Of a stretch of 51,861 nucleotides of DNA, positions 5,112 to 41,705 are shown piece by piece. The stretch lies in the IMG/VR virus record IMGVR_UViG_3300038560_000034, positions 1 to 51,861 of that record. One strand, given 5' to 3'. The translations under genes were made by a program, and so were the position numbers. The notes below the pieces were generated by a model that did not search any database, had not been told where the DNA came from, and was given only the letters and a program-made list of their open reading frames with translations. How positions within the stretch are numbered: position 1 is the first letter of the stretch; every line of letters starts with the position of its first letter. Origin of the DNA: a virus.

Positions 5112-7469
5112 GTGTCGGCTGTCGATGACCTCATCGCATCGCGCAAGGGCTCATCACCGGAAGCGGCGGGCGGGAGCGCAGTCGATGCGCTCATTGCTTC
5201 TCGCAAGAGCGGCGGTGGCTCGACGTCAGAGAACGTCTTTCTCGCAAAAGGAAAGCAAGTCGGCACGAGCGTCGGCAAAGCGCTCGATGCGCAACGCTGG
5301 GCTGCGGCCAAACTCGCAACGGGCGAATCCGACACCGATAAGCAGATGACCAAAGAGCGCGAGATGGTCGGAACGCAAGGCGCGTATGAAGCGCTCGGCA
5401 AGGTGCCCGGCGTCGGCCATTTCTTACAAGGAACGAGCGACGTCATCCAACAGACCGTGACCGACCCGCTCACCTACGAAACACTCGGCGCTGGACCCGC
5501 ACTGCGCGCAATCAAGATCGGCGCAGACGGCTTGCCGCTTGCCGAACACATCGCGCAGGGCGCAATGAAAGCGATCAACGCAACGCCGTACGGCCGCAAG
5601 CTCTACGACTTCACGCACTGGGGCGGCGAGGTCGCGCGCGAGCAAGGGCCGGAAACCGTCCAATTCATTCGCGGTGCGGCGAACAAAGCGTCGAGTGCGG
5701 GAATGCGCGTACAGCAGCACTTGGAGCGCCGTTTCGATGCGGTTACGAAGCCGCTCAGCGACGAAGAAAAAGTCCAAGTCGGCCAAGCTCTCAACGGTGA
5801 ATCGAAAGCCGAGGACCTCGCGCCCAAACTCCAATCGGCGTATCGGCAACTACGGACGCTCACCGAACTCGATTACAAAATGCGCACGAATGTCACACGT
5901 TCGATCCTGTTCAATAGCCTCACGAAAGGCTTGCCGCAGGAACAGAAGTCCGCGCTCATGGCGGCGCTGCGATCGGGCAAAGCTCCGGCCGGTGATCTTG
6001 AACCCTACTACTCGCGCATTCAACGCGAACTTGAGGAGCAAATGCCGCGCCGGGAAAACTACCTTCCAACCAAGCACGAAAAAGCGCCTGAGGCTCCAGA
6101 AGGTACAGAAGCAAAAACGATCAACGCAGCGGAGCACTTCGACCCGCGTACGCTCGAACGCGAGCAAGTGAAAGTGGAGCGGCCCGAACAACTCTCCGAA
6201 GGCTTCGGGGCAATGGCGAGCAACGCGGGTCGTCAAGCACAGGTCGGCGTCATTCACGACTCGCTCGGCGAACTGCTCGATGATCCCAAAGTCTCAAAGC
6301 TCTTTGAGAAGACGCTGAAGGCAACGGGCGGTAAAGCCACGGACCTCGATAAGATCAAGGACCACTGGAAGGCACTCGTCGGGTATCCGCGCGCGGCGAC
6401 CGTTTCGTTGACGCCGCGCCATGCTGCGAACATTTTGGATCTGTTGGCGAACACTGTCGGTCCGGATAAGGCTCCTCAAGTTCTCAAAGAAACGATGAGC
6501 CTCGCCACCGAACTGATGAAGGCCAAAGGCGTCATCCCCGGAGTCAAGGCGGACCCGAAGAAGTACGTCGCGCTGACGAAAGAGGGTCGTGACCTCGGGG
6601 CCATCTCGGGCGAGTTCGTGGAGCGCACGCCGTTCTTCCAGAAGTTTCCCACCTGGGTTCCAGGCGTTGGCGGGAAGAGTACGGGACCGCTCGGGGCCTG
6701 GACGCGGACGAACAACGCGATTGTCTGGGCGATAGACGAAGCTGCAAAAATATCCTATGCCCGAGCAATCGCCGCAAGCGGTGAGGCCACTGGCCTACGT
6801 GCCGGCGGCCTGGCTTCATCTCGGCTCGTCGATTACTCCCACGTATCTCCGATGATCGAGAAACTTCGCTACGTTGCTCCTTTCGGTACCTTCCGTGGCT
6901 CGATTCCCGGCGCCGTTGCCGGTGGCGTTGCACGTAACCCAGCGCGCGCGGCATTTCTTAATCGCGCGAGCGGCGGCACGATGTACGGCGGCAAGCCCGA
7001 CCGTAAGCAGCATGGCATCGAATTGTTGAATCCAACGGCCGACGTTTCGCGTGGCCTCGATGCGCCTCAGGACTATCTGCGTTCGACCATCGGCGCTCCG
7101 GTTCAGGCGGTGGCAACCCTCGGCGCGGAAGCGATGACCGGAAACCCACTCGCGTCGATCAAGGAAACGGGCCAAGAGATTGCCGCAATTCCCGGCCAAG
7201 TCGCAAAGGGCCAATTCAGCAAGATCGGCACCGAGCCGAAGCAGTCCCCGTACGCAAAGGCCGTGGCCGAGCGGGCCGCGAGGTATCTGAACTACCAGAA
7301 CCCCATCGACCTTCGCTGGCTTATCGGCGCCGCCTCGGCGGGCGTCCTCGAAGCGCGAGCGGCCTTGCAGCAACTCGGCATGAGCCAATTCCAGGCACCG
7401 AAGGGAACGCCGCAAGAACGCCTCGGCAAAGAGGCGGCGCAGCAAGTCCTCGGAATTAGCGCGCGCTAG
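5112..7469 (+). CDS. Large internal virion (ejection) protein
   Basis: This 785-residue protein is the largest in the genome and uses a GTG start one base after the previous stop. The N-terminus carries two copies of an 11-residue motif (SAVDDLIASRK and SAVDALIASRK) about 24 residues apart. The rest is mostly helical and charged, with Gly/Ala-rich segments near residues 590-630 that may contact membranes. It resembles the large internal proteins that podoviruses inject. No lysozyme or protease motif is evident. The operon appears to break after it: a promoter follows directly at 7473. Confidence 0.6.
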   Translation: MSAVDDLIASRKGSSPEAAGGSAVDALIASRKSGGGSTSENVFLAKGKQVGTSVGKALDAQRWAAAKLATGESDTDKQMTKEREMVGTQGAYEALGKVPGVGHFLQGTSDVIQQTVTDPLTYETLGAGPALRAIKIGADGLPLAEHIAQGAMKAINATPYGRKLYDFTHWGGEVAREQGPETVQFIRGAANKASSAGMRVQQHLERRFDAVTKPLSDEEKVQVGQALNGESKAEDLAPKLQSAYRQLRTLTELDYKMRTNVTRSILFNSLTKGLPQEQKSALMAALRSGKAPAGDLEPYYSRIQRELEEQMPRRENYLPTKHEKAPEAPEGTEAKTINAAEHFDPRTLEREQVKVERPEQLSEGFGAMASNAGRQAQVGVIHDSLGELLDDPKVSKLFEKTLKATGGKATDLDKIKDHWKALVGYPRAATVSLTPRHAANILDLLANTVGPDKAPQVLKETMSLATELMKAKGVIPGVKADPKKYVALTKEGRDLGAISGEFVERTPFFQKFPTWVPGVGGKSTGPLGAWTRTNNAIVWAIDEAAKISYARAIAASGEATGLRAGGLASSRLVDYSHVSPMIEKLRYVAPFGTFRGSIPGAVAGGVARNPARAAFLNRASGGTMYGGKPDRKQHGIELLNPTADVSRGLDAPQDYLRSTIGAPVQAVATLGAEAMTGNPLASIKETGQEIAAIPGQVAKGQFSKIGTEPKQSPYAKAVAERAARYLNYQNPIDLRWLIGAASAGVLEARAALQQLGMSQFQAPKGTPQERLGKEAAQQVLGISAR

Positions 7470-7472
7470 GGA

Positions 7473-7501
7473 TTGACAATCTACTAGGCAGGACCTACTC
7501 T
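7473..7501 (+). promoter_or_regulatory. Sigma70-type promoter, leaderless configuration
   Basis: TTGACA (7473-7478), a 17-bp spacer and TACTCT (7496-7501). The predicted start point, seven bases after the -10 box, is 7508, which is also the first base of the GTG start codon of the next gene. The transcript would have no 5' leader, and no Shine-Dalgarno site is present. Confidence 0.7.
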
Positions 7502-7507
7502 GGATTA

Positions 7508-7768
7508 GTGAGTTGGTTCCAGCGCCTCTTCCGAAAGCCGCTTCGCATCGTGAAGATCGGCCTGCGCTCGAACCAAGGGAACCTCCGCATTGCGACGTTC
7601 CGCATCTATAGCGCGTCTGAGTTTCAGATGTCGGTTGACCGGCTTGATCCCAAAGAGGGCATCCAGTTTTCGATCCCGGTCGCGCGACTCAATACGGACG
7701 AATGTATTTGGATGCGCCCGAGCGTCGAGGACTTCGCGCGTCAAATAGTCGCTTGCGACCAATCGTAA
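7508..7768 (+). CDS. Small basic protein of unknown function
   Basis: An 86-residue protein with a basic amphipathic N-terminus (WFQRLFRKPLRIVKIGLR) followed by a beta-rich region ending in a short helix. The GTG start coincides with the predicted transcription start of the promoter just upstream, so translation would be leaderless. The neighbours are small virion and membrane proteins. No family recognised. Confidence 0.65.
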   Translation: MSWFQRLFRKPLRIVKIGLRSNQGNLRIATFRIYSASEFQMSVDRLDPKEGIQFSIPVARLNTDECIWMRPSVEDFARQIVACDQS

Positions 7769-7777
7769 AGGAATCAC

Positions 7778-8440
7778 ATGTTTGCTGAGATAGCCGAAAC
7801 CGCCGTAGGCCTAGGACTCCTCGCCGCATCATCCCCGGTTTGGGTACCGTACGTCGCGAAATTGCGTGTCGCTTACGGTGAGCGCGTGAAGCAAATTCAA
7901 GCCTCACAGGACGCGCGCGACGCGTATATCCCGGTGCAGCAGAAGCGGCAAGAGGAACTCGCAGGGCTTGTTCATCGCCAAGAAGTTGCGAAGCACACAG
8001 CGTACGCAATTCAATCCGAGGCCGCGCTTGCCGTCACGGAAGCGACGATCGAGCACGCGCTATCGAGCGGCGACCTTGCGCTCGCGCGTGATGGCGTCCA
8101 ACTTGCGCTTCCATCTCCGAATGGCGCAGCCAATCCTATTCCTCCCGAATACACGCAGCCTCGACTGCACCAGCCGACTACATACAAGCTAAACGAGCAG
8201 TTCAATCAACGCGCTAAGCATTCAGGAGGTCTGAGCGGGAGCGACCCGTTTCGCGACAATGGCTCGACCTTCTACCTCGACTTACTACGCAACGGGTATC
8301 AGCGTTCCGGCAAGCGCGACGATGAAGTCACAGATGTTCACACAGGAGAACGTATCGCCGTGGAGGGAGAACTTCTCCCACCAGAGTCTGCTGGAGTATC
8401 CGCACCAGTGGGAAGCGTGGAAGACGTTTCTGCCCGATGA
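7778..8440 (+). CDS. Protein with N-terminal hydrophobic segment and coiled-coil-like body
   Basis: This 220-residue protein has a mildly hydrophobic N-terminal segment (ETAVGLGLLAASSPVWVPYV, about residues 7-26), a long charged helix (about 30-110) and a Pro/Gly-rich C-terminal half. The topology suggests a membrane-associated or virion-internal protein. It sits between a small basic protein and a ribbon-helix-helix-like gene. No enzymatic motifs are visible. Confidence 0.6.
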   Translation: MFAEIAETAVGLGLLAASSPVWVPYVAKLRVAYGERVKQIQASQDARDAYIPVQQKRQEELAGLVHRQEVAKHTAYAIQSEAALAVTEATIEHALSSGDLALARDGVQLALPSPNGAANPIPPEYTQPRLHQPTTYKLNEQFNQRAKHSGGLSGSDPFRDNGSTFYLDLLRNGYQRSGKRDDEVTDVHTGERIAVEGELLPPESAGVSAPVGSVEDVSAR

Positions 8441-8458
8441 ATATCCAGGTGGCTATTA

Positions 8459-8650
8459 GTGAACGATAACTGCCGCGTTCAGCTCGACATTCGCGATCTG
8501 CCGCTCGGCATAAAGCCGAAGCTCAAACAGATGGCCCTCGATGCCGACTTGACGCTGACCGAGTACATCAAAGCGGCGCTGATCGACCTCGCCAAGAGCG
8601 ATGAAGAATTCGCCGCTTCGCAGCGCCCAGGATATACGCCGGTTCGATGA
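8459..8650 (+). CDS. Ribbon-helix-helix-like DNA-binding protein
   Basis: A 63-residue protein from a GTG start. The layout of a beta strand (VQLDIRDLP) and two helices (KPKLKQMALDADLTLTEYIK, then AALIDLAKS) matches Arc/FitA-type ribbon-helix-helix repressors, which bind operators as dimers. It ends by overlapping the next gene by ATGA. No toxin partner is adjacent, so it is more likely a regulator or a remnant than an antitoxin. Confidence 0.55.
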   Translation: MNDNCRVQLDIRDLPLGIKPKLKQMALDADLTLTEYIKAALIDLAKSDEEFAASQRPGYTPVR

Positions 8651-8832
8651 AGCGGTATATCGTTGCAATGTCCCAGTTAGTCGCTGCGTATCTCGGGCTT
8701 TGCGTTATGATGCGAGCACGAGCAGACCAAGACGAATGGATCGGTCTCGGTATGATTCTCGTATCGGCTCCGCTCGCAATTATTAACGCGACGTATTTCG
8801 TTCAGGATTTCGGGAAGCGCAAGTATGACTGA
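8647..8832 (+). CDS. Small two-helix membrane protein
   Basis: This 61-residue protein has two hydrophobic segments (about residues 6-21 and 32-50) separated by a short charged loop (RARADQDEW) and a basic C-terminus. It overlaps the genes on both sides. Size and topology would fit a holin or a small inner-membrane phage protein, but no catalytic lysis gene is adjacent here. Confidence 0.6.
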   Translation: MKRYIVAMSQLVAAYLGLCVMMRARADQDEWIGLGMILVSAPLAIINATYFVQDFGKRKYD

Positions 8833-9145
8833 GGCTCAAGGTTGGGCTATCGTCGCCTTTCTGTGCCTTGCGCTCGCCGCGGCGGTCATTGTCTTCGTCG
8901 CTATGCAGATTCTCCCGATCACGAACGCATTCGGCGTCATGCACAAACTCGATGATCTGTTCGATAAGCGAATCAATGCCGTGCTCGACCGTTACCGTGA
9001 GCAAAAGAAAAAAGAGCAACCGCAGATTCCTGACGGAAAGCCGCAGGCACAGGCGGGGACGCCGTTTACGACCGCTCCGTTGATTCACGCTGGCATGAGC
9101 GCGATGGAAGACCAACCAGACGCAACCGACGTGGCTGACGCATGA
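8825..9145 (+). CDS. Single-pass membrane protein with charged cytoplasmic tail
   Basis: A 106-residue protein with one clear transmembrane helix (about residues 6-29, VAFLCLALAAAVIVFVAMQI region), a coiled-coil-like charged segment (DKRINAVLDRYREQKKKEQ) and a disordered acidic end. The plan resembles an i-spanin or a membrane-anchored phage accessory protein. It overlaps the preceding gene by 8 bp and the next by ATGA. Confidence 0.6.
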   Translation: MTEAQGWAIVAFLCLALAAAVIVFVAMQILPITNAFGVMHKLDDLFDKRINAVLDRYREQKKKEQPQIPDGKPQAQAGTPFTTAPLIHAGMSAMEDQPDATDVADA

Positions 9146-9291
9146 GAGATAAAGTCATTGCTGCGGCTGCGGTTGTCATCGTCGTGCAATTCGCGAAGTC
9201 GGCAAAAACGGGCGGCTACTCGCCATTCACGGAAGCCGAATACAAAGACGCGCTTGAGATCGTCCGTGCCGCGCTCGGAGGCATTCACTAA
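9142..9291 (+). CDS. Small protein with N-terminal hydrophobic segment
   Basis: This is a 49-residue gene below usual ORF cut-offs. ATG 9142 overlaps the previous TGA (ATGA), and the TAA directly precedes the GTG of the next gene. The N-terminus VIAAAAVVIVVQFAKSAK is hydrophobic and then basic, followed by a short acidic helix. It may be a small membrane peptide. Tight packing on both sides supports it being translated. Confidence 0.6.
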   Translation: MRDKVIAAAAVVIVVQFAKSAKTGGYSPFTEAEYKDALEIVRAALGGIH

Positions 9292-9864
9292 GTGCCGCGT
9301 CGTAGTGCGAAAAACGATCAGCAGGACGGCCAAGAAATCGGCATCCTCATGCTGCCGCCGCCCAAGACAAGTCACAAGCACGAGCACCGCGAGGACCCGT
9401 ATGAATCCCCGCCTGGGGCCGTGCCACACGTCGTTTCGAGTGCGCCACTCAAGCGCAAGCTCACGGCGGCTGAGAAGAAGCAGCAGAGCGAACTGCGAGC
9501 CGAACACAAGATGCTCGCAACGCGCCATGCCGCGTATCTCGATGCGCTCGGCGAAAACGGCGGCGACCGCGTGAAGGCGCTTTCGCATGTGCTCGGCATT
9601 TCCGAGGACGACGTGCGCCCACAACTCCTTGACCTCTTGGCAGAAGTGCGCAGAGGACTTGCCGTGAGTCCGCTCGGAGAACTCCTTGAACGCAACGGTT
9701 TAGACTTGGCCGCACGCGTTAATATCTTGCGCGGCCATGCGTATTCCGATAACCCCGCTGCGTCACTCAAAGCGGTCGATTTAGTTCAGGAGATGCAGGG
9801 GCAAACGTCGGACACGGGTTCATTTGAGAACTACCTTCGCCTCGCCAAAATTTCGAAAGGATAA
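9292..9864 (+). CDS. Putative terminase small subunit-like DNA-binding protein
   Basis: This 190-residue protein has a disordered N-terminus (about 1-55) and then a helical region with HTH-like character (AAYLDALGENGGDRVKALSH, VLGISEDDVRPQLLDLL). The C-terminus contains ILRGHAYSDNPAASLKAVDL. Small terminase subunits recognise pac or cos sites with an N-terminal HTH and oligomerise through helices. No better small-subunit candidate exists in the genome. The large subunit lies 7 kb away on the other strand, so this is tentative. Confidence 0.4.
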   Translation: MPRRSAKNDQQDGQEIGILMLPPPKTSHKHEHREDPYESPPGAVPHVVSSAPLKRKLTAAEKKQQSELRAEHKMLATRHAAYLDALGENGGDRVKALSHVLGISEDDVRPQLLDLLAEVRRGLAVSPLGELLERNGLDLAARVNILRGHAYSDNPAASLKAVDLVQEMQGQTSDTGSFENYLRLAKISKG

Positions 9865-9866
9865 TC

Positions 9867-10364
9867 ATGGCTCTTGACCCGCGTGCGCTTACGAGTCGTG
9901 GACTCTACAAACTTAAGATTCACGACGTGAAGCCAGAAGACATCGAACCCAATGGTGATCGTTACGTCGTGGAAGAGATTGACGTTGACGAGTACATCGA
10001 GCGTGGGCAGTTGCTCGTTATCACACAGAATGCGCCTAAGCACCAAGGCGACCCGATGGCGGACCCGACAATCGAGAACCGAGGCGTCATTGTCGCGGTC
10101 GTGATTCGTGCCGGCAATGGGCATCTTCTTGGCCTTCCCGACCCGTACTTCATTGAAGACGGTAAGGGCGTGCAGGGCAATGCCGACGTGCCGATGTTCT
10201 TCTCGGAAGGCGACGTTGTGTTTGTCGATCACAACGCGAAAGGTCGAGCGCTCCGCATTCTCGGGCGCGAGGTTCGCATCATCAATCAGATCGACGTACT
10301 CGCGAAAATGGATGGCGTAAAGCTCAAGCGGGGCGAGCATGGATGGGAGCAAGTCGAGGAGTGA
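9867..10364 (+). CDS. GroES-like co-chaperonin
   Basis: This 165-residue protein has the order of elements of the GroES beta-barrel: GDRYVVEEID, RGVIVAVVIRAGNGHLL, then FFSEGDVVFVDHN and a C-terminal REVRIINQIDVLAK that parallels the bacterial ending ESDILAIVE. Phage co-chaperonins such as T4 gp31 replace host GroES when folding capsid proteins. An insertion between the two halves makes it longer than the usual 95-110 residues. It heads the glycosyltransferase cluster. The next GTG overlaps its stop. Assignment is by motif reading only. Confidence 0.6.
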   Translation: MALDPRALTSRGLYKLKIHDVKPEDIEPNGDRYVVEEIDVDEYIERGQLLVITQNAPKHQGDPMADPTIENRGVIVAVVIRAGNGHLLGLPDPYFIEDGKGVQGNADVPMFFSEGDVVFVDHNAKGRALRILGREVRIINQIDVLAKMDGVKLKRGEHGWEQVEE

Positions 10365-11320
10365 ACGAGACTATCCAGCGCGAGAACTGGGAACTTGCCG
10401 ACCGCTTTCCGCGCACCGTAGACCGCGCCGGGAATATCTACATGCCGGAAGGCGACATCATTCTTTCAGCCGGTAAACTTGTCGGAGCCGGGGACCATTT
10501 TATCTACAGCACCCTGGCCAAGCGATTCACAGAGATTGGTCGCAAGGTCTATCTCTATCGCGTGACCTGCGCGCGCAACAACGATACCCTTGATATGGTC
10601 TGGGGACGCAATCCCTACATCGTCGGCACGACCGATCGCGCTCCGAACGCAGGCTATGTTCGTCAAGGCCTGTTTTACGAAGTCGCAAACCGTTTGCCCA
10701 TCGGGTCTATTGCAGCGATGGAAATGGCGCACGGTCTTCCGCCGCCGTACTCAATCGCGCCGTATATCAACTACAAGCCGAAGAAATTCCCGTTCGAACT
10801 GCAGGATACGGTACTCGTTGACTTCTCGGCGGTGTCATCCAAGATTGGCGAGCAGGGCATTGGCGAATTCTTACGGGCAATGAAGGGACGCTTCCGAAAC
10901 GCGCCGTTCTTGCAGCTTATCCCGCCCAAGAACATCTCGCTGCATCCACCGCAAATCGCGTGTCCCTCCGTGCAGATCAATGGCATTGCTGAATACATGG
11001 ACGCGCTTTCGGGATGCCGGGCGTGGATTGGCTCCGAGGCAGGCGGTCAGTCATTCGCTGCGACCGTGCGCGGTGAGCACACCGTCTATGACCTCGAAGC
11101 GCGACCTGAGATTGTCGTGCTGAGCACGATGAAGACGTACAACTCGCGTGGCTATTGCTACGCTGGCGCAGACTATCGTTCGACGATTTTCGGCGAAGAT
11201 AAAACTGGGGATTATTTCTTTCCAGGGGAGATGGAGCGGCACATTTACGATATTCGTTGCGAGTGGAGCCTTGAGCAGATGCGCAGCGATAACCCGCAGT
11301 CTTGGAAGGCTGTCGTTTGA
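10361..11320 (+). CDS. GT-B-fold (GT9-like) glycosyltransferase
   Basis: A 319-residue protein. The GTG at 10361 overlaps the previous TGA, and an ATG at 10343 is an alternative start. The N-terminal GAGDHFIYSTLAKRFTEIG followed by NPYIVGTTDR matches the heptosyltransferase-like (GT9) pattern of a Gly-Asp loop and a helix. Near residue 220 LSGCRAWIGSEAGGQSFAA parallels the GT9 C-terminal donor-site motif (SxDTGxxHLAAA). It would transfer a sugar from a nucleotide donor to a cell-envelope or protein acceptor. It is the only GT-B-like enzyme in a cluster of GT-A paralogues. Confidence 0.6.
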   Translation: MNETIQRENWELADRFPRTVDRAGNIYMPEGDIILSAGKLVGAGDHFIYSTLAKRFTEIGRKVYLYRVTCARNNDTLDMVWGRNPYIVGTTDRAPNAGYVRQGLFYEVANRLPIGSIAAMEMAHGLPPPYSIAPYINYKPKKFPFELQDTVLVDFSAVSSKIGEQGIGEFLRAMKGRFRNAPFLQLIPPKNISLHPPQIACPSVQINGIAEYMDALSGCRAWIGSEAGGQSFAATVRGEHTVYDLEARPEIVVLSTMKTYNSRGYCYAGADYRSTIFGEDKTGDYFFPGEMERHIYDIRCEWSLEQMRSDNPQSWKAVV

Positions 11321-12030
11321 GGGTTCAGATCGTGACGAGCTTTCCTCCGGACTGGCGGCCACTCGCTGATATCACCTGTGCGACAATGCGCAAGTATTGC
11401 GAGAAGTGGAATTACGCACCACTTTTTGAGGACTGCTCGACGCGGCAAGAAAAGAAGCATACGCCGTGGGTGGACGATAAGGACCCGGAGATTGGGCACT
11501 ACGTCCCAATGCGCACAATGATTAAGTTTCCGCTCCTTGAGCACTTTATGCGCGAGGAAGACTGCGGGCAGAATAACGACTACGTTGCGTGGATCGACAA
11601 CGACTGCGTGGTAACAAACTATTCTGTGCCGATTACGAAATGGTTCGATGGACACGACAAGGACCTCGTACTCGCTTTCGATGTAAACGGCGTACACCCA
11701 ACGATTATCCTTATGCGCAATACGGTCCTTATGCGCGGGCTTGTGTGGGCGTGTAAAGAGGCGGGCTGGCGCATGTACGGGATGCACGGGTGGTCTGACA
11801 TCATGGCGTTTCGTTTCATGCTCGACTATCCGCCGTATGCAGATCGCGTCAAGTTTTTCTCGGCTCAAGAAATGTGTGCAATGCCGCCGATGGTCCATCC
11901 GATGCCGGCCGATGTGCGTTCGCAGTTTGAATGGACGCCTGATTCGTGGACTGTGCATTTGAGCGCACTTGACCTTCAGTATCGTGTTTCTATTGCTCAG
12001 CAGTTCGTTGAGAAGTTGGGGCTGATCTGA
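11317..12030 (+). CDS. GT-A-fold glycosyltransferase (paralogue 1)
   Basis: About 237 residues from a TTG at 11317 that overlaps the previous stop (TTGA). The protein opens with the first GT-A strand (RVQIVTSFPPDW) and continues PLADITCATMRKYCEKWNY. A DxD-type metal site appears as YVAWIDNDCVVTN near residue 94. The pattern resembles GT34/GMA12-MNN10-type galactosyl- and mannosyltransferases. It is clearly paralogous to the genes at 12027, 13500 and 16022. The non-ATG start is chosen because it restores the strand shared by the paralogues. Confidence 0.7.
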   Translation: MRVQIVTSFPPDWRPLADITCATMRKYCEKWNYAPLFEDCSTRQEKKHTPWVDDKDPEIGHYVPMRTMIKFPLLEHFMREEDCGQNNDYVAWIDNDCVVTNYSVPITKWFDGHDKDLVLAFDVNGVHPTIILMRNTVLMRGLVWACKEAGWRMYGMHGWSDIMAFRFMLDYPPYADRVKFFSAQEMCAMPPMVHPMPADVRSQFEWTPDSWTVHLSALDLQYRVSIAQQFVEKLGLI

Positions 12031-12701
12031 AGATCGCAATCGTTTCGGCTGGGAGTCCAGACTATAAAGATTTGGCCGATGTTACACAGCCGACTCGTGT
12101 GCGGTATGCCGAGCGTCATGGATACGCGCCGTACTTTTTCGAAACAACGCGCGAGCGTGGAGATAGCTGCAAGAGCGATGCATACTTCTATCTCTACGAC
12201 AAAGGCTTTGACCTCATGTGCTGGATGGATCTGGATAGTCAGATTATGAACAGCGATGTTCTCGTTGAAGATATCTGTATGCAGTGGATGGGGTTTAGGC
12301 CACGGGGATTAGCGTGGAGTTTTGGGGACGACGCTCCCCATTTTCTTTGGGGTTGGGATCATGCTGGGCCGAACAGCGGCGTCTACATTGTGCGCTTTAC
12401 GCCCGAGGGTGCGCATTGGATGGACCGAGCGTATGCGACGATGCGCGAGAACGGACTTGCCGATGAGACGGCGATGGAAATTCTTGCAACGACGTATCCG
12501 TTCAAGAACTATGTTCGTGCGTGCCCCGGCGTCGTACTGAACTCTTACGACTACAAGTATTATGGTTGGGATAAATACCCGCTCGACTATCAGCGCAAGC
12601 TCAATCTCTATGAGCCTGGTCGCTTCATCCTTCATATGCCGGGCTATCCTAACGACGTGAGAATTCCTGAACTCAAGCGCCGTCTTGCGGAGGCGACGTG
12701 A
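12027..12701 (+). CDS. GT-A-fold glycosyltransferase (paralogue 2), apparent CTG start
   Basis: About 224 residues. A conventional start would be TTG at 12072, but that removes the first beta strand. Reading from CTG 12027, which overlaps the previous TGA (CTGA), gives KIAIVSAGSPDYKDLADVTQ, the element shared with the other three paralogues. The DxD site is CWMDLDSQIMN. Later WDHAGPNSGVYIVRFTPEG matches the acceptor/donor region of the family. Overlaps of the form NTGA are the rule in this operon, which supports the CTG start. Confidence 0.7.
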   Translation: MKIAIVSAGSPDYKDLADVTQPTRVRYAERHGYAPYFFETTRERGDSCKSDAYFYLYDKGFDLMCWMDLDSQIMNSDVLVEDICMQWMGFRPRGLAWSFGDDAPHFLWGWDHAGPNSGVYIVRFTPEGAHWMDRAYATMRENGLADETAMEILATTYPFKNYVRACPGVVLNSYDYKYYGWDKYPLDYQRKLNLYEPGRFILHMPGYPNDVRIPELKRRLAEAT

Positions 12702-13009
12702 TTCCACCAAAACTCGATGAGCGATATGGCCTCACACAGTCCGAATACGGCGGCCTTTTGTCGTCGGTAAAGCAATGCCACTACAATCCTGAACTCGGCA
12801 TGAAAATGTTCCTCAAGCACCATCCGCACTTGAAGGCAACACCCGCACTCTATGGCTTGGCAATCAGCGTCGGTCGCACGCCGTTCCCGAGTATCGTTGG
12901 CTTGAAAGAGGGCCCGTTTCCCGAGGATAAGTCGCGTCCGTGGCTCGATAGCCGTACTTGGAATAGTGAATCTCAAAAAGCGTGGGACGAAGAAGTGTCG
13001 AATTTATGA
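12698..13009 (+). CDS. Unknown protein within the glycosyltransferase cluster
   Basis: A 103-residue soluble protein starting at a GTG that overlaps the previous stop. It has a helical N-terminal half ([20 protein letters not shown]) and a Pro/Trp-rich C-terminus ([19 protein letters not shown]). No family recognised. It lies between two glycosyltransferases and is followed by an inserted HNH gene. It could be an accessory of the cluster. Confidence 0.55.
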
Positions 13010-13503
13010 TGATGGATGCTTCTGTGGAAAATCGGTTCTGGAAATACGTCGCACCGATGACTGAAGGGCGCGGTTGCTGGGAGTGGACTGGCTTCATACC
13101 CCCACGTCCCGGACCCGGGTATGGCTACTTATGGGACAAGGCCGTTGGCGATAAAGTTGGCGCGCACCGCATTTCATGGGTGCTGCATCGGGGAGAGATT
13201 CCCGACGGCCTGTTCGTTCTTCATCGCTGTGATAATAGGTCTTGCGTAAACCCGACACACCTGTTCCTTGGGACGCAAAAAGACAACAGCCGCGATATGG
13301 TGGAGAAAGGGCGAGCGGATTTCCTAAGCGGCAATAGGGTTTCCAGTCAAGCGAAATGGGAGGCTAAGTATTGTAGGGCTGGGCATCTTCGTACTCCCGA
13401 TACGACATGGGAGTATGTTCGGAACGGGAAGCGCAGCAAGGTTTGTAAACAATGCCAACGCGCGCGATCGCAGCGGTGGCGATCTAGGGGTGGCAGAACG
13501 TGA
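13006..13503 (+). CDS. HNH endonuclease (HNH_3-type), inserted in the glycosyltransferase cluster
   Basis: A 165-residue protein from ATG 13006 (ATGA overlap). It has the full HNH_3-type pattern: CWEWTG near 23-28, [22 protein letters not shown], then [20 protein letters not shown] with the catalytic His and the Asn and His ligands. A C-terminal zinc knuckle follows (CRAGH then CKQC). Such proteins are free-standing homing-type nucleases that spread between phages. It interrupts the glycosyltransferase run without harming the flanking genes. Confidence 0.85.
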
Positions 13504-14264
13504 GCCAAGAGTTTCAAATTATTTCGCCACAGACGCGGGCTGATTGGTTCATTAGCGGCGCTGGGCTCATTCGAAAAAATATAATTGGGTGGGACGCAAA
13601 GGGTGATCTTCCTTTGCCTGGTATCAAAACGTGCCTCGTTGGCATGTATGATAGGAAGTACGACCCGATCGCAGAGATAGCGGAAGATAATTGGGCCCGG
13701 TACGCGCTACGTCACGGAATATCTCTTCGAACCTATCCCGGCGCATTTCACACGGATCCATCCAAGCGTGAGACGTACGGCGATAAGGTCCGCTTCTCGC
13801 TCTACTATGACGTGCGCGGCATTTTCGACGTGGTGATGTTCCTCGACATCGACTCCGTGTTCGTCAACATTAACCAGCGCATTGAAGAGACGCTTCAGGG
13901 ACGCCGGTTCTTGTGGACGTACGGCGATGGTGGGCCCATGTCCGGACTGTGGATCGCACGAACAGATGATATGACAGAGAAGCACTTACGCTTCGCGTAT
14001 GAGCGCGCCGCTGCCGAGAACAATACGCGCTACGACAAGATCGAGCCGAACGGAATCTCTGACCAGGACGCGATGGCGTGGTGCATGAACGTGCCCCCAT
14101 TCAACAGCACATTTGGGAATTGCGTCGAGGCAGAGTCGGTCGGATTCTGCTTTCCAGATACGACAATGCCGCGCCCGTGGATCGTGACGGCGCGCGGTGG
14201 AAACATCGAGGAGAAGATTGCCGCACTCACGCCTTGGCTCGCCCGTACCACTCAACCCGCCTAA
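13500..14264 (+). CDS. GT-A-fold glycosyltransferase (paralogue 3)
   Basis: A 254-residue protein from a GTG overlapping the HNH stop. The N-terminal extension is about 38 residues longer than in its paralogues. Then [20 protein letters not shown] gives the first strand, [13 protein letters not shown] supplies the DxD metal site, and [19 protein letters not shown] matches the paralogues. It would transfer a sugar from a nucleotide-sugar donor with a divalent metal. The acceptor is unknown. Confidence 0.7.
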
Positions 14265-14274
14265 GAGGCTCTTT

Positions 14275-15363
14275 ATGACGCAGACTATTTCTCCCCAAGA
14301 CTTCCTTGCGCTCTCCAACCTCATTGTCGAGAAGGGCATCCGCTATTTCATTGAGACGAACGCGGATGGAAAGACAGAAGGCTTAGAGATGGCATCTCGC
14401 CTCGGACTACGAGCGCATGTATGCGATACGTTTTCTGCCGTGCAACTTTCGGAGCGCTATCCGGATGCGGACGTGTACGACGGCGATTCCGCGAACTTTT
14501 TAGAAAACGTGCTACCGAAACTCGATGCGCCTGCGTTCTTTTGGCTGAGTAGTGAACTCGAACGTGCCGTGGTTGAAATCGAAAGCGAAGGCAAAGACTG
14601 GCATTTCACGATGAAGGACGATTCGGTTCAAAGCGCGCCACAAGAGGCGCCTGTTCCAGCCGATCACTGTAGCCAGCGCAAAAAGGTGGATGGCGTCTTT
14701 CCGGACCCCGTTGAGGACTTCGACCGTAATTGGGCAGGCCCCCAAGAATTGAAGCCTGCCGTCTATCGCAGTCAGAGCGAGAAAGACACGTACTACGCAA
14801 TCGCCGTCGAGAACGGGTACAACGCGTCCGTATTCGAGGCGACTGATATCGTGATCGACATCGGCGCCAATATCGGAGCGTTTTGTAAGCGCGCACATCT
14901 CAATGGCTCGCGAGAAATCTACGGCTTTGAGCCTTCGGCGTTCTACATGGAGGCGGCGAAAGCAAACGTCGGCGACCTTGAAGGGGTGTCGCTGCACCAA
15001 CTCGCGGTCGTGCGGAGCGATGATAAACGCAAGGCGCAATACTTTCACGACAACGGTATGAGCACGATGGTCGATGAAGGCAACCCGGTTGAAAATGTTT
15101 CGCTGGATGAAATTCTCGCGGACATTGGCCCCGTGCGCTTTCTGAAGATCGACGTTGAGGGTTCCGAGTGGTCGATATTACGGACTTGTACGAAACTCAA
15201 TCGCGTGTCCGAGATCGCGGGGGAATATCACCTGGCCGACCACTACGATGACAAAGAGGTGAGCGTCGGCGCGCTCATGGGGTTCCTCTACGACCAGGGT
15301 TTCACGCAGGCTGGATTCGTGCGGCAGGCCGATGCCACGGGCGGATTTTGGGCGAAGCGATGA
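14275..15363 (+). CDS. FkbM-family methyltransferase with degenerate N-terminal methyltransferase-like domain
   Basis: 362 residues from ATG 14275. The C-terminal half (about 195-340) is a FkbM-type SAM-dependent O-methyltransferase: VIDIGANIGAF (SAM loop), IYGFEPSAF, VSLDEIL and FLKIDVEGSEWSIL. The N-terminal 100 residues (YFIETNADGKTEG, YDGDSANFLE, AFFWLSSE) echo another sugar O-methyltransferase family whose motifs are TETGxYxGxT, GDS and FWLDxH, but the His/Asp end is missing here, so this part is probably non-catalytic. FkbM enzymes methylate sugar hydroxyls, which suits the glycosyltransferase neighbours. Confidence 0.8.
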   Translation: MTQTISPQDFLALSNLIVEKGIRYFIETNADGKTEGLEMASRLGLRAHVCDTFSAVQLSERYPDADVYDGDSANFLENVLPKLDAPAFFWLSSELERAVVEIESEGKDWHFTMKDDSVQSAPQEAPVPADHCSQRKKVDGVFPDPVEDFDRNWAGPQELKPAVYRSQSEKDTYYAIAVENGYNASVFEATDIVIDIGANIGAFCKRAHLNGSREIYGFEPSAFYMEAAKANVGDLEGVSLHQLAVVRSDDKRKAQYFHDNGMSTMVDEGNPVENVSLDEILADIGPVRFLKIDVEGSEWSILRTCTKLNRVSEIAGEYHLADHYDDKEVSVGALMGFLYDQGFTQAGFVRQADATGGFWAKR

Positions 15364-16025
15364 GCGACTGGCGCGACAGGTTCCCAGCCGACATTCAGCC
15401 ATACTGCAACCAGTTCGCGGACCTGTTCAAGACGGCGTACATGCAACTGCTTTGGCGGAATGGCCCGAGCGGCGACCCGAACGAGCAAATCTCCCATGCG
15501 GAGACAACGGCGCGCGAACTCATCGCGAAGTATCGCCACCTCGGCGAAGGGAACCCGCACAACGACCATTTCTACCGCTGCACTGACAGAGTATCATCCA
15601 GCGGCTTCTACGACGGCATGGACGACGAGGCACACATTCCCTGGGCTACGCATACCATCAACTTGGATGAAACGCGCACCGGGCCGTATTCCAGGACGAA
15701 GCATCTCTGGAACGGTCACATCGACGACGGTGGCCCGCGCCCTTACGGCTGGTTCGAGAAAGCGGCCTACCACTTCATGGGCGACTTCGCGACGAACCCA
15801 GAGGCGCGTATTCATGTAAACTGCGCGGCGGGCGCAAGCCGAGCCCCGTCGATGGCCTACTTCTTCGTGCGCGCTACGACGAAACTCCCTGTGCTCGACG
15901 CCAAGGCAACGGTCTACGCCGCGAACTCCGTGCTAAACCGAAACATCAGCATCACCTATTGGCAGGACGCAGAGCGCGCCCTACGTCGTCTTGGCCTCGT
16001 TGACGACGCGTGGTTCCTTGGGTGA
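15360..16025 (+). CDS. Dual-specificity-type (CX5R) phosphatase
   Basis: A 221-residue protein from ATG 15360 (ATGA overlap with the FkbM gene). The phosphate-binding loop HVNCAAGASRAPSMAYFF at about residues 152-169 has the CX5R signature of Cys-based protein tyrosine/dual-specificity phosphatases, with catalytic Cys155 and Arg161. An upstream PWATHTINLDE is where the first core strand would be. It could remove phosphate from protein, sugar or lipid intermediates. A second CX5R protein lies at 19874. The substrate is unknown. Confidence 0.7.
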   Translation: MSDWRDRFPADIQPYCNQFADLFKTAYMQLLWRNGPSGDPNEQISHAETTARELIAKYRHLGEGNPHNDHFYRCTDRVSSSGFYDGMDDEAHIPWATHTINLDETRTGPYSRTKHLWNGHIDDGGPRPYGWFEKAAYHFMGDFATNPEARIHVNCAAGASRAPSMAYFFVRATTKLPVLDAKATVYAANSVLNRNISITYWQDAERALRRLGLVDDAWFLG

Positions 16026-16762
16026 GAGTCGCGGTCACGTCGGCATGGAATGAAGCGTACCAACCCATCGCTGACATAACCGTGCCCGTGATGGTTGAGT
16101 ACGCGAAGAAGCACGGCTATTCGTTCTGCGGCTGGCCTGACCGCTATCACACAGACGAGCAGCGTGATCCGTCATTTCTCACCTACGGCGACCGAGCGAA
16201 GCTCCAAATCTACAAAGACCTCTACGCCGACTTCGATGTGATTGTGTGGCTTGACGTCGATACGCTCATCACGAATCAGGACAAGCGCATCGAAGATATT
16301 CTTGGCGACCGGCCCTTCCTGTGGACAGTTGATTGGCATGGGCCACTCTCGGGCTTTACGATTGCGCGCTGCATCCCATCCGTTCACTTGGCGCTCAATA
16401 CGGTGCTACATCGGGCGGCGGAAGATGCGTGGTCACTCGGTACGACGGGGAAGCCACTCGCGCACGGTGGTCGTTCAGATCAGGACACGATGCGCTTCTT
16501 TGCGCCCTGGCGTCCGTTCAATGAAATCTTTGGACCGCAGAATCAGGTAACATGCAAAGAGGCTGGGCACTGTATGCCGATGGCGTACATGAAGGCAGAC
16601 CCGCTCTATTTCTATATTGCGAATTGGGAGCCGGGGGATTTTCTTTGGACGCTTCCCGGCGCTCCGGTTGCCGAGCGGGTTGCTCTGCTCTTTGAGAAGG
16701 CCGTCGAAGTGTACGGAGATACTCGGCACGAAGCAAATGCGCGCTACTCACTTGGAAACTAA
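16022..16762 (+). CDS. GT-A-fold glycosyltransferase (paralogue 4)
   Basis: 246 residues from GTG 16022, which overlaps the phosphatase stop. It opens RVAVTSAWNEAYQPIADITV, has the DxD site as VIVWLDVDTLITN (about residue 80) and DWHGPLSGFTIARC as in its paralogues, and ends with a SDQDTMRFF motif shared in kind with paralogue 3 (SDQDAMAW). It is the last gene of the cassette and converges on the terminase gene 29 bp away. Confidence 0.72.
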   Translation: MRVAVTSAWNEAYQPIADITVPVMVEYAKKHGYSFCGWPDRYHTDEQRDPSFLTYGDRAKLQIYKDLYADFDVIVWLDVDTLITNQDKRIEDILGDRPFLWTVDWHGPLSGFTIARCIPSVHLALNTVLHRAAEDAWSLGTTGKPLAHGGRSDQDTMRFFAPWRPFNEIFGPQNQVTCKEAGHCMPMAYMKADPLYFYIANWEPGDFLWTLPGAPVAERVALLFEKAVEVYGDTRHEANARYSLGN

Positions 16763-16791: not shown

Positions 16792-18837
16792 TCACAGGTT
16801 CATTAGGCTTGGGCGATTGCGGTTCGGTGACGCTCGGTTAATCATCGCAAACGCCGACTCGAACTCTTTACGCTTCTCTTCCTCTTCGGCGACTTTCTGA
16901 CGATGCAGTCCCGAGTACGGGTCCGCTGCGATACAGAGCGCGATGCAGAGCGCGTCGTAGTGGTCGTCGTGTCCACGCGAGGACTTAAAACTCCCGGTCG
17001 GCGTTCGTGTTAATCCACGAATCTCGCGCTGGGTCTTTGCGTCCGGAATAATGAGCAGCGGTTCGGACTTGCCTGACTCGCGGTTGCGATTGCAAAAGAG
17101 CGAGGTGAACGTCTGATCCATGAGCGGACGGGTGTTCGTCTTCGTTTCCCAACCGGGGTAGCGCGTCGGCTCAGGAACGTCGGCGTCATAGCGCTTGTAG
17201 TAGTGGCAATTTCCCATCCCTTTATCGACCGCCCAGCGGACGAGTTGATAGCCCATGCCCGCCGTCTCAATTGCGTAGTAGCAGTTGAAGTACCACCGAT
17301 AGAGATAGTACAACTGCTCAAGAAGGATGTTCGCCGGAACACGCGCTTCATAGGTCGCGACGATCTTGTTGTCGCGGTAGCGCACGATCTGCGCGACGGA
17401 AGCGTCTGAGTCCGGGGACTCGTAGGCGATATTGGTATCCACGCCCATCGTATACTTCTCGCCGTTTTGTGGAGGAGCGTAGATACGAACTTCGTGCCAC
17501 GGGTTTCTATCGCGATGCGTGGACCGTGGGACCTCTCCATTGAGCTCCCAAGCGGCGAAGGTGCCTTCGCTCTCAAAGAGGCCCACGGCAGCCGGGATGC
17601 GCTCCATGCGAGACATCGCATCCATCGCTGAGCGATCGAACGGCGCGGAGCCCGACGAGATGAATGCTTCCTCAAGTGTTGACCCGAAGAACTCTTGGCG
17701 GAAGGTGAGCAGCGCCATTTCTTCGGATGGCATCTTGTAGCCGTCGATCTTGCGCCGCCGCCAGAAGATACGGCTGAGCGAGACGCCGTACTTGTCAACG
17801 AGGTACTGTTCTTCTTCGCCACCGTACTTGGAGATTTTCCCGAGCGTTGATTCCGTCTCGCCGCGCTGCTCTTTTGAGAACGGGCGTCGAATCTCGCCCC
17901 GGGGATTGTGCTTAGAGCGAACGTCGTACTCTTCGTGCCGGTGCCAGGCCCAGATGGCGGGGACGTAGACGCCTGGGTAGCCCTTCGCGACGGCATCCGG
18001 GAGTCCGAGAATGCCGCTGTAGATCATGTCGGCCGTAAGATCGCCCTTCCAATTCTCGATGCGCTTCGTCCATTTCGGATTCTCTTCACAAGCCTCGCGA
18101 GCGAGCGGTGCGTAGAATTCTTCGGAGTCGCCGTTTGGGGTCGAGTCGATAATGATGATCGAGAAAGGGGAGAGGGGAGCGGCTGAGATGACGCCGGCCT
18201 GCACGTCGGCCTGGCGCTCCGTCTCCATGTGCGCGTATTCGGCAATGATGACGAGGCCCTGCGGGATGCCGCGCATGGACGAGGGGACGGTGATTTGATA
18301 TATCGAGTCGAGACCTGGGTTGTTGAGCCGGTCCTTTTGGTTTGGGTTATCGAAGATGAACGTCTTGATCGACTGAATGCGGCGCATCGGCTGCATCCAG
18401 CGCGGGAGGCCGTTAAGCATCGTACCGAGACGGCGGCCTTGCTCGGCGGCAACGTCTTCGTCGTCTACGAGGAGCAGCGCGCGTTTATTCTCATCGAGGC
18501 AGTAATGCAGCCCGCGTCCGATGTTGCGCAGCGTCCAGCCGAGTTGGCGGACCTTGCCTTCGATGACACGGCCGGGAAGGTCGTTTCGGATCTGGCAATC
18601 GAGCGTGTAGTCGAGGAGCGCCTGGCCCGAGAAGGGTCGCATTCGAACCATACTGCCGCTCTTGTCCGCAACGTAGAGCATGTTCGAGGCGAAGAAGGGA
18701 TAGGACGACATTGTGCGCTTCGTGAGCGCAAGACGCCAGATATTTTCCATCTGTGGCGGCATGTCGGAGGTCCCGTAGGTGAACTTGAACCAATCCGGGA
18801 CGTCGAGGAATTCATCGGGCGAGTAAACAGGCTTCAC
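16792..18837 (-). CDS. terL: Terminase large subunit (DNA packaging ATPase/nuclease)
   Basis: 681 residues from a GTG at 18837. The N-terminal ATPase has a terminase-type Walker A KVRQLGWT (95-102), a Walker B-like GLVIIAEYAHM (about 194-204, with Glu200 in the acidic position) and the coupling motif DSTPNG (231-236). The C-terminal RNase H-like nuclease has MGVDTN (Asp467), YAIETAG (about 521-527) and GHDDHYDAL (about 630-640). It drives packaging through the portal. It is the only virion-assembly gene on the minus strand: the glycosyltransferase operon converges on it and the portal operon diverges from it. No good ribosome site or promoter is seen. Confidence 0.92.
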   Translation of the reverse strand: MKPVYSPDEFLDVPDWFKFTYGTSDMPPQMENIWRLALTKRTMSSYPFFASNMLYVADKSGSMVRMRPFSGQALLDYTLDCQIRNDLPGRVIEGKVRQLGWTLRNIGRGLHYCLDENKRALLLVDDEDVAAEQGRRLGTMLNGLPRWMQPMRRIQSIKTFIFDNPNQKDRLNNPGLDSIYQITVPSSMRGIPQGLVIIAEYAHMETERQADVQAGVISAAPLSPFSIIIIDSTPNGDSEEFYAPLAREACEENPKWTKRIENWKGDLTADMIYSGILGLPDAVAKGYPGVYVPAIWAWHRHEEYDVRSKHNPRGEIRRPFSKEQRGETESTLGKISKYGGEEEQYLVDKYGVSLSRIFWRRRKIDGYKMPSEEMALLTFRQEFFGSTLEEAFISSGSAPFDRSAMDAMSRMERIPAAVGLFESEGTFAAWELNGEVPRSTHRDRNPWHEVRIYAPPQNGEKYTMGVDTNIAYESPDSDASVAQIVRYRDNKIVATYEARVPANILLEQLYYLYRWYFNCYYAIETAGMGYQLVRWAVDKGMGNCHYYKRYDADVPEPTRYPGWETKTNTRPLMDQTFTSLFCNRNRESGKSEPLLIIPDAKTQREIRGLTRTPTGSFKSSRGHDDHYDALCIALCIAADPYSGLHRQKVAEEEEKRKEFESAFAMINRASPNRNRPSLMNL

Positions 18838-19662: not shown

Positions 19663-19877
19663 TGGCGGACGAGGTTATTGAGGCGACGTGTTTCGGAGGC
19701 CCAGAGGACGGTATTACGATTCGCTGTCCACGCCGACCGTACACCGTCTTTCAGCGCATGATTCCAGGCACGTTTGCGTTCGAGGAAAGCCTGTACGCAC
19801 TTGAAGTCCTGGAAGATGGCCGCTTTCGGTGGAAGCACCTCTCGACGCATCCCGTAACACACGCGAGTAAAGCGTGA
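19662..19877 (+). CDS. Small phage protein with FGGPxDG motif
   Basis: 71 residues. The GTG at 19662 overlaps the preceding TAG by one base. A GTG at 19656 would add two residues. The opening EATCFGGPEDGITI is a motif seen in many small phage proteins of unknown function, followed by a beta-rich region (YALEVLEDGRFRWKHL). The last GTGA overlaps the next gene. Confidence 0.6.
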   Translation: MADEVIEATCFGGPEDGITIRCPRRPYTVFQRMIPGTFAFEESLYALEVLEDGRFRWKHLSTHPVTHASKA

Positions 19878-20320
19878 GGCCTATCGTCGTTTGGAATCGG
19901 TCCGAGGCAGAGAGTGTGTCACTTGGCTACCCCTACGCGCACATCTCAATTTGCGACTCGCTCGTTGGGGATATGCCAGCAAATATACCGGACAATCCAA
20001 ATCGAGTTGCGCTTTTACGGGTGGAATTCACCGACTGCCCCACGGCTGGCCCCGATGAAGCGCCGACGTATATCTTGCCTGATTATCCCATTGACCCGCC
20101 AACGCTTGAGCAATGCAAAGAGATTGTCGCATTCGTTCGCGAGTGGGGCGATAAGGTAGAAGGCTTCGCGATTAACTGCGCTGGCGGTCAATCACGAAGT
20201 ACGGCAACCGCCGAGATGGTGAACACACTTTTTAATTGCGGTATCGCACTCTTGCCACCGGGTCGGAATTGGGGCCCAAACCGAATGCTTCGCGTTCTTT
20301 ATCGTGAGGCGATTTCGTGA
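19874..20320 (+). CDS. Second CX5R dual-specificity-type phosphatase
   Basis: A 148-residue protein from a GTG overlapping the previous stop. The loop FAINCAGGQSRSTATAEM (about 98-115) has the CX5R signature with Cys102 and Arg108, followed by the usual helix. An N-terminal VVWNRSEAESVS and HISICDSL resemble the compact phage DSP-like family. Substrate unknown. With the gene at 15360 it makes two Cys-phosphatases on either side of the terminase gene. It overlaps the portal start, so expression is coupled to head genes. Confidence 0.68.
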   Translation: MRPIVVWNRSEAESVSLGYPYAHISICDSLVGDMPANIPDNPNRVALLRVEFTDCPTAGPDEAPTYILPDYPIDPPTLEQCKEIVAFVREWGDKVEGFAINCAGGQSRSTATAEMVNTLFNCGIALLPPGRNWGPNRMLRVLYREAIS

Positions 20321-22383: not shown

Positions 22384-22985
22384 TGGCACGTAAACAATGC
22401 GAGCACATTAACCCACCGCTGTCTAAACGTGGTCAATGCGCTATTTGTAAGCGGGCCAGAGAGCGAGTCTACTACAAAGAAACGTATCGTTCAAAGAAGA
22501 TAGATATGGTGATGGATTATGCGTTGAGGCATCCAGATCGTCATAAAACACCAGAAGCCCTTGCCTATTTTAGAAAATGGTCCAAGATGGACCGTAAACG
22601 AAATCCAGAAAAGCACCACAAATATGAAGTCGTGAGGTGGCAGCGTCACAGAGATAAATTAAGAGCTGCTCGTAAAATATGGGTAGAAAAAAACCGCGCA
22701 TACGTTAATGCAAAAGAGCAAGGGCGGCGGCATAATTTACGAGATCAAATTGGAATAACTCAAGCCGAGTGGGAAGCCATTATCGCAAAGCAACGCGGCC
22801 GATGTGCGGAGTGTGGCAATAAAGAAAAGCTAACCCAGGACCACCTAGACCCTAAAAGCAAAGGCGGCGCACACGCGCCCTATAACATTCGCGGCTTATG
22901 TGGTCCGTGTAATTATCGTAAGGGGAGCCACATTCGGCCGGGCACCCAGATGGGGTTGCTTCTGTGTAAGGCTGGCGCGGCGTGA
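22383..22985 (+). CDS. HNH endonuclease, AT-rich insert after portal
   Basis: A 200-residue protein. It has an N-terminal zinc knuckle (CEH then CAIC), a long basic helical linker and a classical HNH domain at about 140-185: GRCAECGNKEKLTQDHLDP, then NIRGLCGPCNYRKG. Codon and base use is more AT-rich than in the portal gene, suggesting recent transfer. It is probably a free-standing homing-type nuclease. It overlaps its neighbours at both ends without disrupting them. Confidence 0.87.
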   Translation: MARKQCEHINPPLSKRGQCAICKRARERVYYKETYRSKKIDMVMDYALRHPDRHKTPEALAYFRKWSKMDRKRNPEKHHKYEVVRWQRHRDKLRAARKIWVEKNRAYVNAKEQGRRHNLRDQIGITQAEWEAIIAKQRGRCAECGNKEKLTQDHLDPKSKGGAHAPYNIRGLCGPCNYRKGSHIRPGTQMGLLLCKAGAA

Positions 22986-41457: not shown

Positions 41458-41705
41458 TTCAGGCGGATTTATTCCAGGGCGATGCTCGCGAGATTCCTGG
41501 GCCTCGCCTTGCGAAGCAGCTTGCGAACGTCGCCTTCGTCATGGTGGACGGGCAAGAGCGAACACTCCGCACGATCGCCGCGCTTGCAGGCTGCGAGACG
41601 CAATCCGCCTCGGCACGGCTACGCGAATTGCGCAATAAGCACGGCTGGACGATCTTGCGCGACCGGCGCGAAGGGCTCGTCTTCTACAAGGGAATCGCGC
41701 CGTGA
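41454..41705 (+). CDS. Winged-helix DNA-binding protein
   Basis: 83 residues from a GTG overlapping the previous stop. A wHTH pattern covers residues 38-80: TLRTIAALAGCETQSASARL with the recognition helix, then RELRNKHGWTILRDRREG and a wing. Similar small wHTH proteins act in phage operons on replication or regulation. Its position just before the integrase suggests a role as directionality or control factor. Confidence 0.6.
   Translation: MIQADLFQGDAREIPGPRLAKQLANVAFVMVDGQERTLRTIAALAGCETQSASARLRELRNKHGWTILRDRREGLVFYKGIAP

Follow-up and report, generated by a model that had tools for sequence, protein, structure and literature searches.

We describe a glycan-building gene cassette in an uncultured tailed phage, recorded in IMG/VR as IMGVR_UViG_3300038560_000034, whose positions 1 to 51,861 form the stretch of 51,861 nucleotides analysed here (the window). 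The cassette comprises nine genes (10343-16762) lying between a GroES-like gene and a convergent terminase gene. In order, these encode a glycosyltransferase of GT-B fold (GTB), two glycosyltransferases of GT-A type (GTA1 and GTA2), a small conserved protein (g5), a homing-type endonuclease (HNH_3), a third GT-A enzyme (GTA3), an FkbM methyltransferase that has an additional domain at its N terminus, a CX5R phosphatase-like protein and a fourth GT-A enzyme (GTA4). We regard it as just about probable that this virus-encoded cassette acts in the cytosol, where GTB would prime a protein, the GT-A enzymes would extend the chain and FkbM would cap it, leaving a methylated oligosaccharide on the virion. 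Computed directly were the enzyme classes, their conservation and synteny, an empty site, GT-A/FkbM fusions and the exchange of alleles, and no membrane or lipid-carrier machinery was recognised.

The same cassette occupies the same place, from the GroES-like gene to the terminase, in five other uncultured phages (L002, L005, L006, L014 and L018) belonging to a set of relatives gathered by a terminase scan of viral contigs (41-69% identity). Its core consists of GTB, GTA1, GTA2, g5, either GTA3 or GTA4, and a methyltransferase, the GTA4 type replacing GTA3 in L006 and L014. The gene order kept in these five phages puts the cassette far beyond chance. L019 has an empty site, its GroES-like gene lying directly next to the terminase, and the more distant L016 and L017 are collinear in gene order and lack the cassette. 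Searches of the whole records of the relatives with a GT-A profile and PF05050 agreed with synteny except in L006. The ratio of nonsynonymous to synonymous substitution (dN/dS) is roughly 0.1-0.25, with dS near saturation, which is purifying and comparable to the terminase. The cassette is real and mobile. A further record, L003, matches part of L002 with full identity, represents the same phage and was for this reason not counted as independent. On the other side of its terminase, L019 carries a different insertion (5704-9907) with what were judged by eye to be a lysozyme-like and a lectin/LamG-like open reading frame (ORF).

The four GT-A paralogues sort into old orthologue groups common to several phages, and both aspartates of the DxD site (D78 and D80) are invariant in all 19 aligned homologues. 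The GT34 family PF05637 is matched at E <= 0.1 by 11 of the 19 GT-A members (best 1.7e-17, in a relative); within the window, GTA4 reaches 21.2 where the cut-off is 23, and GTA1 and GTA3 are without a match. When a GT-A profile was searched against the PDB, A064R of Paramecium bursaria chlorella virus 1 (PBCV-1) came first (E 2.5e-7), with plant GT34 xylosyltransferases next. The predicted fold of GTA4 (predicted local distance difference test, pLDDT, 86; predicted template modelling score, pTM, 0.86) leads to the same enzyme: the best Foldseek match is 2p6w, PBCV-1 A064R (E 2.8e-9; template modelling (TM) score 0.70 by target), followed by 6bsu, the GT34 enzyme XXT1. Among viral models, those closest to GTA4 come from uncultured phages and giant viruses and carry the name 'glycosyltransferase 34', and a viral protein of 638 amino acids, the length of A064R, is among the matches to the GT-A model.

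The FkbM gene encodes two domains: a truncated and degenerate N-terminal domain resembling class I methyltransferases (to about 14640), and an FkbM sugar O-methyltransferase domain (about 14698-15360). The latter assignment is secure; PF05050 scores 50.4 bits against a cut-off of 22.7, and the S-adenosylmethionine (SAM) motif DIGxxIGxF and the motif LKxDxEGxE are conserved in the FkbM alignment. In the PDB the protein alone gave chance matches, and its profile gave generic SAM-methyltransferase matches only. A single frame encodes both a GT-A and an FkbM domain in L014 (491 residues) and in L018 (524 residues). The fused GT-A types differ, that of L018 being a GTA3 orthologue, and since the GT-A parts fall in different groups the fusion probably arose twice. 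L006 has a different methyltransferase where FkbM stands elsewhere, and no recognisable FkbM. Short degenerate methyltransferase-like domains without the SAM loop are found in three phages (window 14275-14640, L002:12289-12813 and L004:10277-10687); intact full-length copies occur in L002, L006 and L018, and in the window the domain is fused to FkbM.

Degeneration of this N-terminal domain is one of the features expected if the cassette were functionless, decaying cargo carried by homing endonucleases. Such a reading would also account for HNH genes at different cassette junctions, the window's HNH gene being common only to L006 and there at another junction, and for a lower GC content in the cassette (0.544) than in core genes of the phage (0.598; p 1.2e-5), a difference that we also count in favour of our main reading. 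We consider it most improbable, however, because the frames are open, the DxD and SAM motifs do not vary, selection is purifying like that on the terminase, and gene order is kept in five phages.

Foldseek placed the AlphaFold2 model of GTB closest to the heptosyltransferase TibC (4rb4/4rap, E 2.6e-5; TM-score low, 0.48), followed by the GT9 structure 3tov and WaaF (1psw). GTB has no Pfam match, and the motifs GxGD and SEAGG are kept among its homologues. It appears GT9-like by modelled fold, with GT9 membership short of sequence-profile proof. TibC heptosylates protein directly in the cytosol and contains a four-cysteine iron finger (PMC4358343); GTB resembles TibC and other bacterial autotransporter heptosyltransferases (BAHT) in its GT-B fold and GT9-like architecture. 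Distant homologues (27-29% identity) were found in Prochlorococcus phage P-TIM68, L011 and L012, beside sugar kinase and nucleotidyltransferase genes in L011 and P-TIM68 and beside a sugar kinase alone in L012. These sugar clusters are like the cassette in having a distant GTB homologue with methyltransferase-like neighbours, but carry kinase, nucleotidyltransferase, isomerase, epimerase or dehydrogenase genes, none of which was recognised in the window cassette.

In the pathway that we favour, GTB, as a heptosyltransferase-like enzyme of TibC/GT9 fold, would most likely put the first sugar straight onto a protein. The three to four GT34-type GT-A enzymes would extend it with host nucleotide sugars at a metal-dependent DxD site, and FkbM would O-methylate the sugar at the chain end. 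A phage structural protein synthesised concurrently is the most likely acceptor, and the product would be a virion bearing a short methylated oligosaccharide, the structure of which would vary among related phages through allele exchange. This order of action, the protein acceptor, the location on the virion and the identities of the sugars are what we infer. No transmembrane stretch was found in the cassette, and no member of the GtrA (PF04138), Bac_transf or Polysacc_synt families in the six phage records, which may be fragments. With no membrane segment, lipid-linked initiator or flippase found, cytosolic glycosylation of a protein, and of a virion protein, is favoured; the latter is favoured also because every carrier has the cassette alongside virion genes. 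Genes for making sugar nucleotides were not recognised in the cassette, so the donors must come from the host.

The closest characterised parallel is in PBCV-1, where A064R is a single protein with three activities (a GT34-like rhamnosyltransferase, a further transferase and a methyltransferase) that produces the methylated terminus of the capsid glycan, and where the transferases are mostly predicted to be soluble and cytoplasmic (PMC9614988). A064R, taken with A061L in the capping of the capsid N-glycan, shares with the phage cassette a GT34-like GT-A domain with DxD, a sugar O-methyltransferase and soluble enzymes. The GT-A/methyltransferase fusions of L014 and L018 repeat its pairing of domains, the likeness being one of enzyme type. 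There are also differences: PBCV-1 infects eukaryotic algae and its glycans are N-linked, the second transferase domain of A064R (D2, a new GT family) has no identified counterpart in the phage, and the phage has a GT9-like GT-B enzyme and three to four separate GT-A genes. Among tailed phages the best precedent is provided by mycobacteriophages, in which the C-termini of capsid and tail tube proteins are glycosylated (Freeman et al. 2023, as cited in PMC12619734). There, phage-encoded transferases decorate virion proteins, as proposed here; no C-terminal or other acceptor feature was identified in the window phage.

Several results weigh against protein-initiated decoration of the virion. The GTB model is of moderate quality (pLDDT 68), and in hhalign the alignment of GTB with an Escherichia coli GT9 profile, at the GT9 C-terminal motif, was not significant (P 0.015, probability 3%; P 0.14 for an unrelated GT-B set). 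The iron finger that characterises TibC has no counterpart, as the alignment of GTB homologues contains no conserved cysteines, and GTB is also without the N-terminal beta-barrel of the BAHT enzymes. A comparison with cassette-less phages revealed no virion genes restricted to cassette carriers, and L019, which lacks the cassette, has a major capsid protein that is just as similar (73%). Lipids or polysaccharides can also serve as acceptors for such GT-A enzymes; for this reason, and because PBCV-1 is an algal virus, the A064R parallel is a functional inference. Finally, both the window and its relative G008 encode an integrase, so that modification of a lysogenic host is conceivable.

The integrase makes modification of the host envelope the main rival. 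Here the cassette would act, in the lysogen or in the course of infection, on the lipopolysaccharide (LPS) core or the capsule, and a methylated side chain would block superinfection or alter a receptor. FkbM enzymes often methylate surface glycans, the LPS heptosyltransferases 1psw and 2gt1 are among the fold relatives of GTB, and its homologues in L011 and P-TIM68 are surrounded by sugar-nucleotide genes of a kind usual for surface polysaccharide. Against this, the six records hold no GtrA, polyprenyl-phosphate transferase or Wzx-type flippase, the cassette has no membrane segment, and it lies in the rightward structural run, away from the integrase and flanked by the GroES-like gene and terminase in all relatives that carry it. 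It also differs from the serotype-conversion (gtr) clusters of phages, which place a GtrA flippase and membrane transferases by the integrase; the cassette has neither. On balance we judge an envelope target unlikely, though it deserves to be kept in view. Virion decoration, the target named in the original prediction, is better supported, because the nearest GT-A relative with a solved structure is the transferase acting on the capsid glycan of PBCV-1, and the searches turned up no machinery of the envelope type; sequence cannot decide between virion and envelope, and this target is best called plausible. The broader claim of a glycan-building unit stands: GT-A and GT-B transferases and a sugar-type methyltransferase are intact, kept in relatives and tied to the structural half of the genome. 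The word 'complete' does not, given the missing sugar-nucleotide genes. Overall, that interpretation was partly supported, its enzymatic reading being mostly right.

Two further targets were weighed. Glycosylation of hypermodified phage DNA as a means of evading restriction has a precedent, in that phage glycosyltransferases of several folds decorate DNA, multi-sugar chains included (Pyle et al. 2024, as cited in PMC12619734). The six cassette-bearing records, however, contain no thymidylate-synthase or TET/JBP homologue that could make a hydroxymethylated base (the TET/JBP negative being weak because the TET control gave no signal), and the nearest fold is that of a protein-glycan transferase, which leaves this target very improbable. 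Improbable, if a little less so, is a soluble role in counter-defence or metabolism, in which a host protein, small molecule or defence signal would be glycosylated with participation of the CX5R protein. All the enzymes look soluble, the window encodes two CX5R proteins, and rapid allele exchange would suit an arms race; yet four to five transferases and a methyltransferase exceed the needs of one defence modification, and the GT-A/FkbM fusions and the A064R match indicate a structural glycan.

Exchange of alleles is most apparent in GTA2. The window and G008 share 75% identity in GTA2 and 57% in the terminase, whereas the window and G001 share 69% in the terminase and only 39% in GTA2. GTA2 thus falls into two allele classes, one in the window and G008 and the other in G001, G002 and G004. 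A tree of terminase, portal and GroES-like proteins rejects a clade of the window with G008 (p 0.0009 in the approximately unbiased (AU) test) and the GTA2 tree rejects the window with G001 (p-AU 0.0002), both values being indicative because the groups tested were picked after the identities were seen. The GTA3 and GTA4 types and the FkbM of G001 look to have been exchanged too. As judged from these comparisons, transferases at one site are traded between phages, and the glycan would therefore change while the pathway is kept. If true, this resembles the allele switching at one site of O-antigen and capsule loci, but for a virion. We suggest, tentatively, that the cassette may be a phage counterpart of chlorovirus self-glycosylation, soluble and protein-initiated, in which close relatives switch glycan type via transferase alleles at a fixed site.

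Virion glycans are thought to affect the immune recognition and survival of phages, and few pathways of phages have been worked out to the level of single genes. Virus-encoded glycan building is itself already known; this version stands out by its parallel to A064R, the fusion of GT-A to FkbM in relatives, the empty site in L019 and the exchange of alleles. The cassette is small, soluble and self-contained but for nucleotide sugars, and it comes with natural alleles and an empty-site relative, so that the assignment of enzyme to sugar to protein can be tested directly in E. coli. As the GT-A enzymes match a capsid transferase of a giant virus, it may also be asked whether the glycan machineries of phages and giant viruses share ancestry or have converged.

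Table 1. Genes of the cassette and its two boundary genes in the window.
Feature	Position	Strand	Evidence or remark
GroES-like gene	9867-10364	+	upstream boundary; phage core gene, outside cassette
GTB, GT-B-fold glycosyltransferase, GT9/heptosyltransferase-like, core	10343-11320	+	Foldseek of AlphaFold2 model; GxGD, SEAGG
GTA1, GT-A glycosyltransferase (WIDND), core	11317-12030	+	TTG start in TTGA overlap
GTA2, GT-A glycosyltransferase (WMDLD), core, exchanged alleles	12027-12701	+	CTG start in CTGA overlap
g5, conserved protein of ~100 amino acids, in every cassette	12698-13009	+	
HNH_3 homing-type endonuclease, free-standing insertion between g5 and GTA3	12982-13503	+	PF13392 3.5e-15; phrog_826 3.4e-32
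GTA3, GT-A glycosyltransferase (FLDID), ~40-amino-acid N-terminal extension, core position	13500-14264	+	
Two-domain FkbM protein	~14275-15363	+	PF05050 3.6e-13
CX5R (CAAGASR) dual-specificity-phosphatase-like protein, accessory	15360-16025	+	PF00782 1.3e-3
GTA4, GT-A glycosyltransferase (WLDVD), GT34-like, accessory paralogue here	16022-16762	+	PF05637 2.8e-4; model
Terminase large subunit	16792-18837	-	convergent; downstream cassette boundary

The layout (table 1) bears out much of what had been read from the letters alone. All seven proteins named in the original prediction are present as open genes, with one GT-B-like and four paralogous GT-A enzymes; the DxD boxes were correctly read, their aspartates being the invariant pair described above, and structure prediction gave the GT-A set a confident fold that matches GT-A enzymes. 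For this set, none of the outcomes named beforehand as refuting (no GT-A fold, loss of DxD, absence from relatives) was seen. Overlooked were g5 and the HNH endonuclease, the latter accessory, as is the phosphatase. The genes had been described as nearly all joined by NTGA overlaps; these four-base overlaps occur at 6 of 9 junctions when that with the GroES-like gene is counted (TTGA, CTGA, GTGA, GTGA, ATGA and GTGA). The unusual starts of GTA1 and GTA2 depend on the overlap starts being correct; a start further downstream would lose the first strand, and in relatives GTA2 begins at the same place with GTG or ATG. The same gene order, as had been proposed for checking, was recovered in the five carriers, beside the empty site and the two cassette-less phages.

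Other details of the setting needed amendment. The GroES likeness of the upstream gene is real and weak (phrog_3188, E 0.0049; GroES chains, 7e-4 by profile), but cassette-less phages also have this gene, which therefore does not belong to the cassette. The cassette does adjoin the terminase, as had been said, but the latter is convergent on the minus strand, and the cassette is therefore the last part of the rightward operon, which does not continue into the terminase. In L016 and L017 the collinear order is 8825-type gene, 9292-type gene, terminase large subunit, GroES, 18859-type gene and portal, relative to which the window terminase is inverted.

The phosphatase had been counted as a member of the unit. 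Its assignment is weak: the CX5R loop (CAAGASR, at ORF residue 155) is present, but PF00782 matches with 19 bits, under the curated cut-off of 33.5, and the PDB holds no solved relative. The protein is absent from all clade relatives, and a viral-contig scan with it found no close relative; one match (30%) lies in a 595-kb phage. A second CX5R protein (NCAGGQSRS; window 19874-20320, plus strand; phrog_5614, E 1.1e-5) lies between the 18859 gene and the portal gene, is likewise absent from relatives and cannot be aligned with the first outside the loop. Because the phosphatase is found only in the window and an unrelated CX5R protein stands elsewhere in it, the gene is probably not core, and it was rejected as a core member.

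Isolated phages show no DNA similarity to the window, and the terminase is only 22-23% identical to that of isolate relatives. Bacterial and archaeal genomes scanned with the terminase and GTB yielded zero relatives, and a viral-contig scan for close relatives with GTA4 as sole query gave no match. Other window genes encode a portal, major head protein (28637-29671), SU10-type adaptor, endosialidase-chaperone tail protein, integrase and RtcB. The tyrosine integrase (41482-42735) is common only to G008 (59% identity), and the RtcB RNA ligase (43244-44452; PF01139 1.3e-125) was found in 0 of 7 relatives searched. The terminase of L018 (8114-11347), and also that of L020, contains an intein with a LAGLIDADG endonuclease (PF14890 3.3e-12; PF14528 3.3e-17), and the other relatives have none at this site. 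Three HNH or endonuclease VII-type genes are spread across the structural block of the window (12982-13503, 22383-22985 and 25914-26726).

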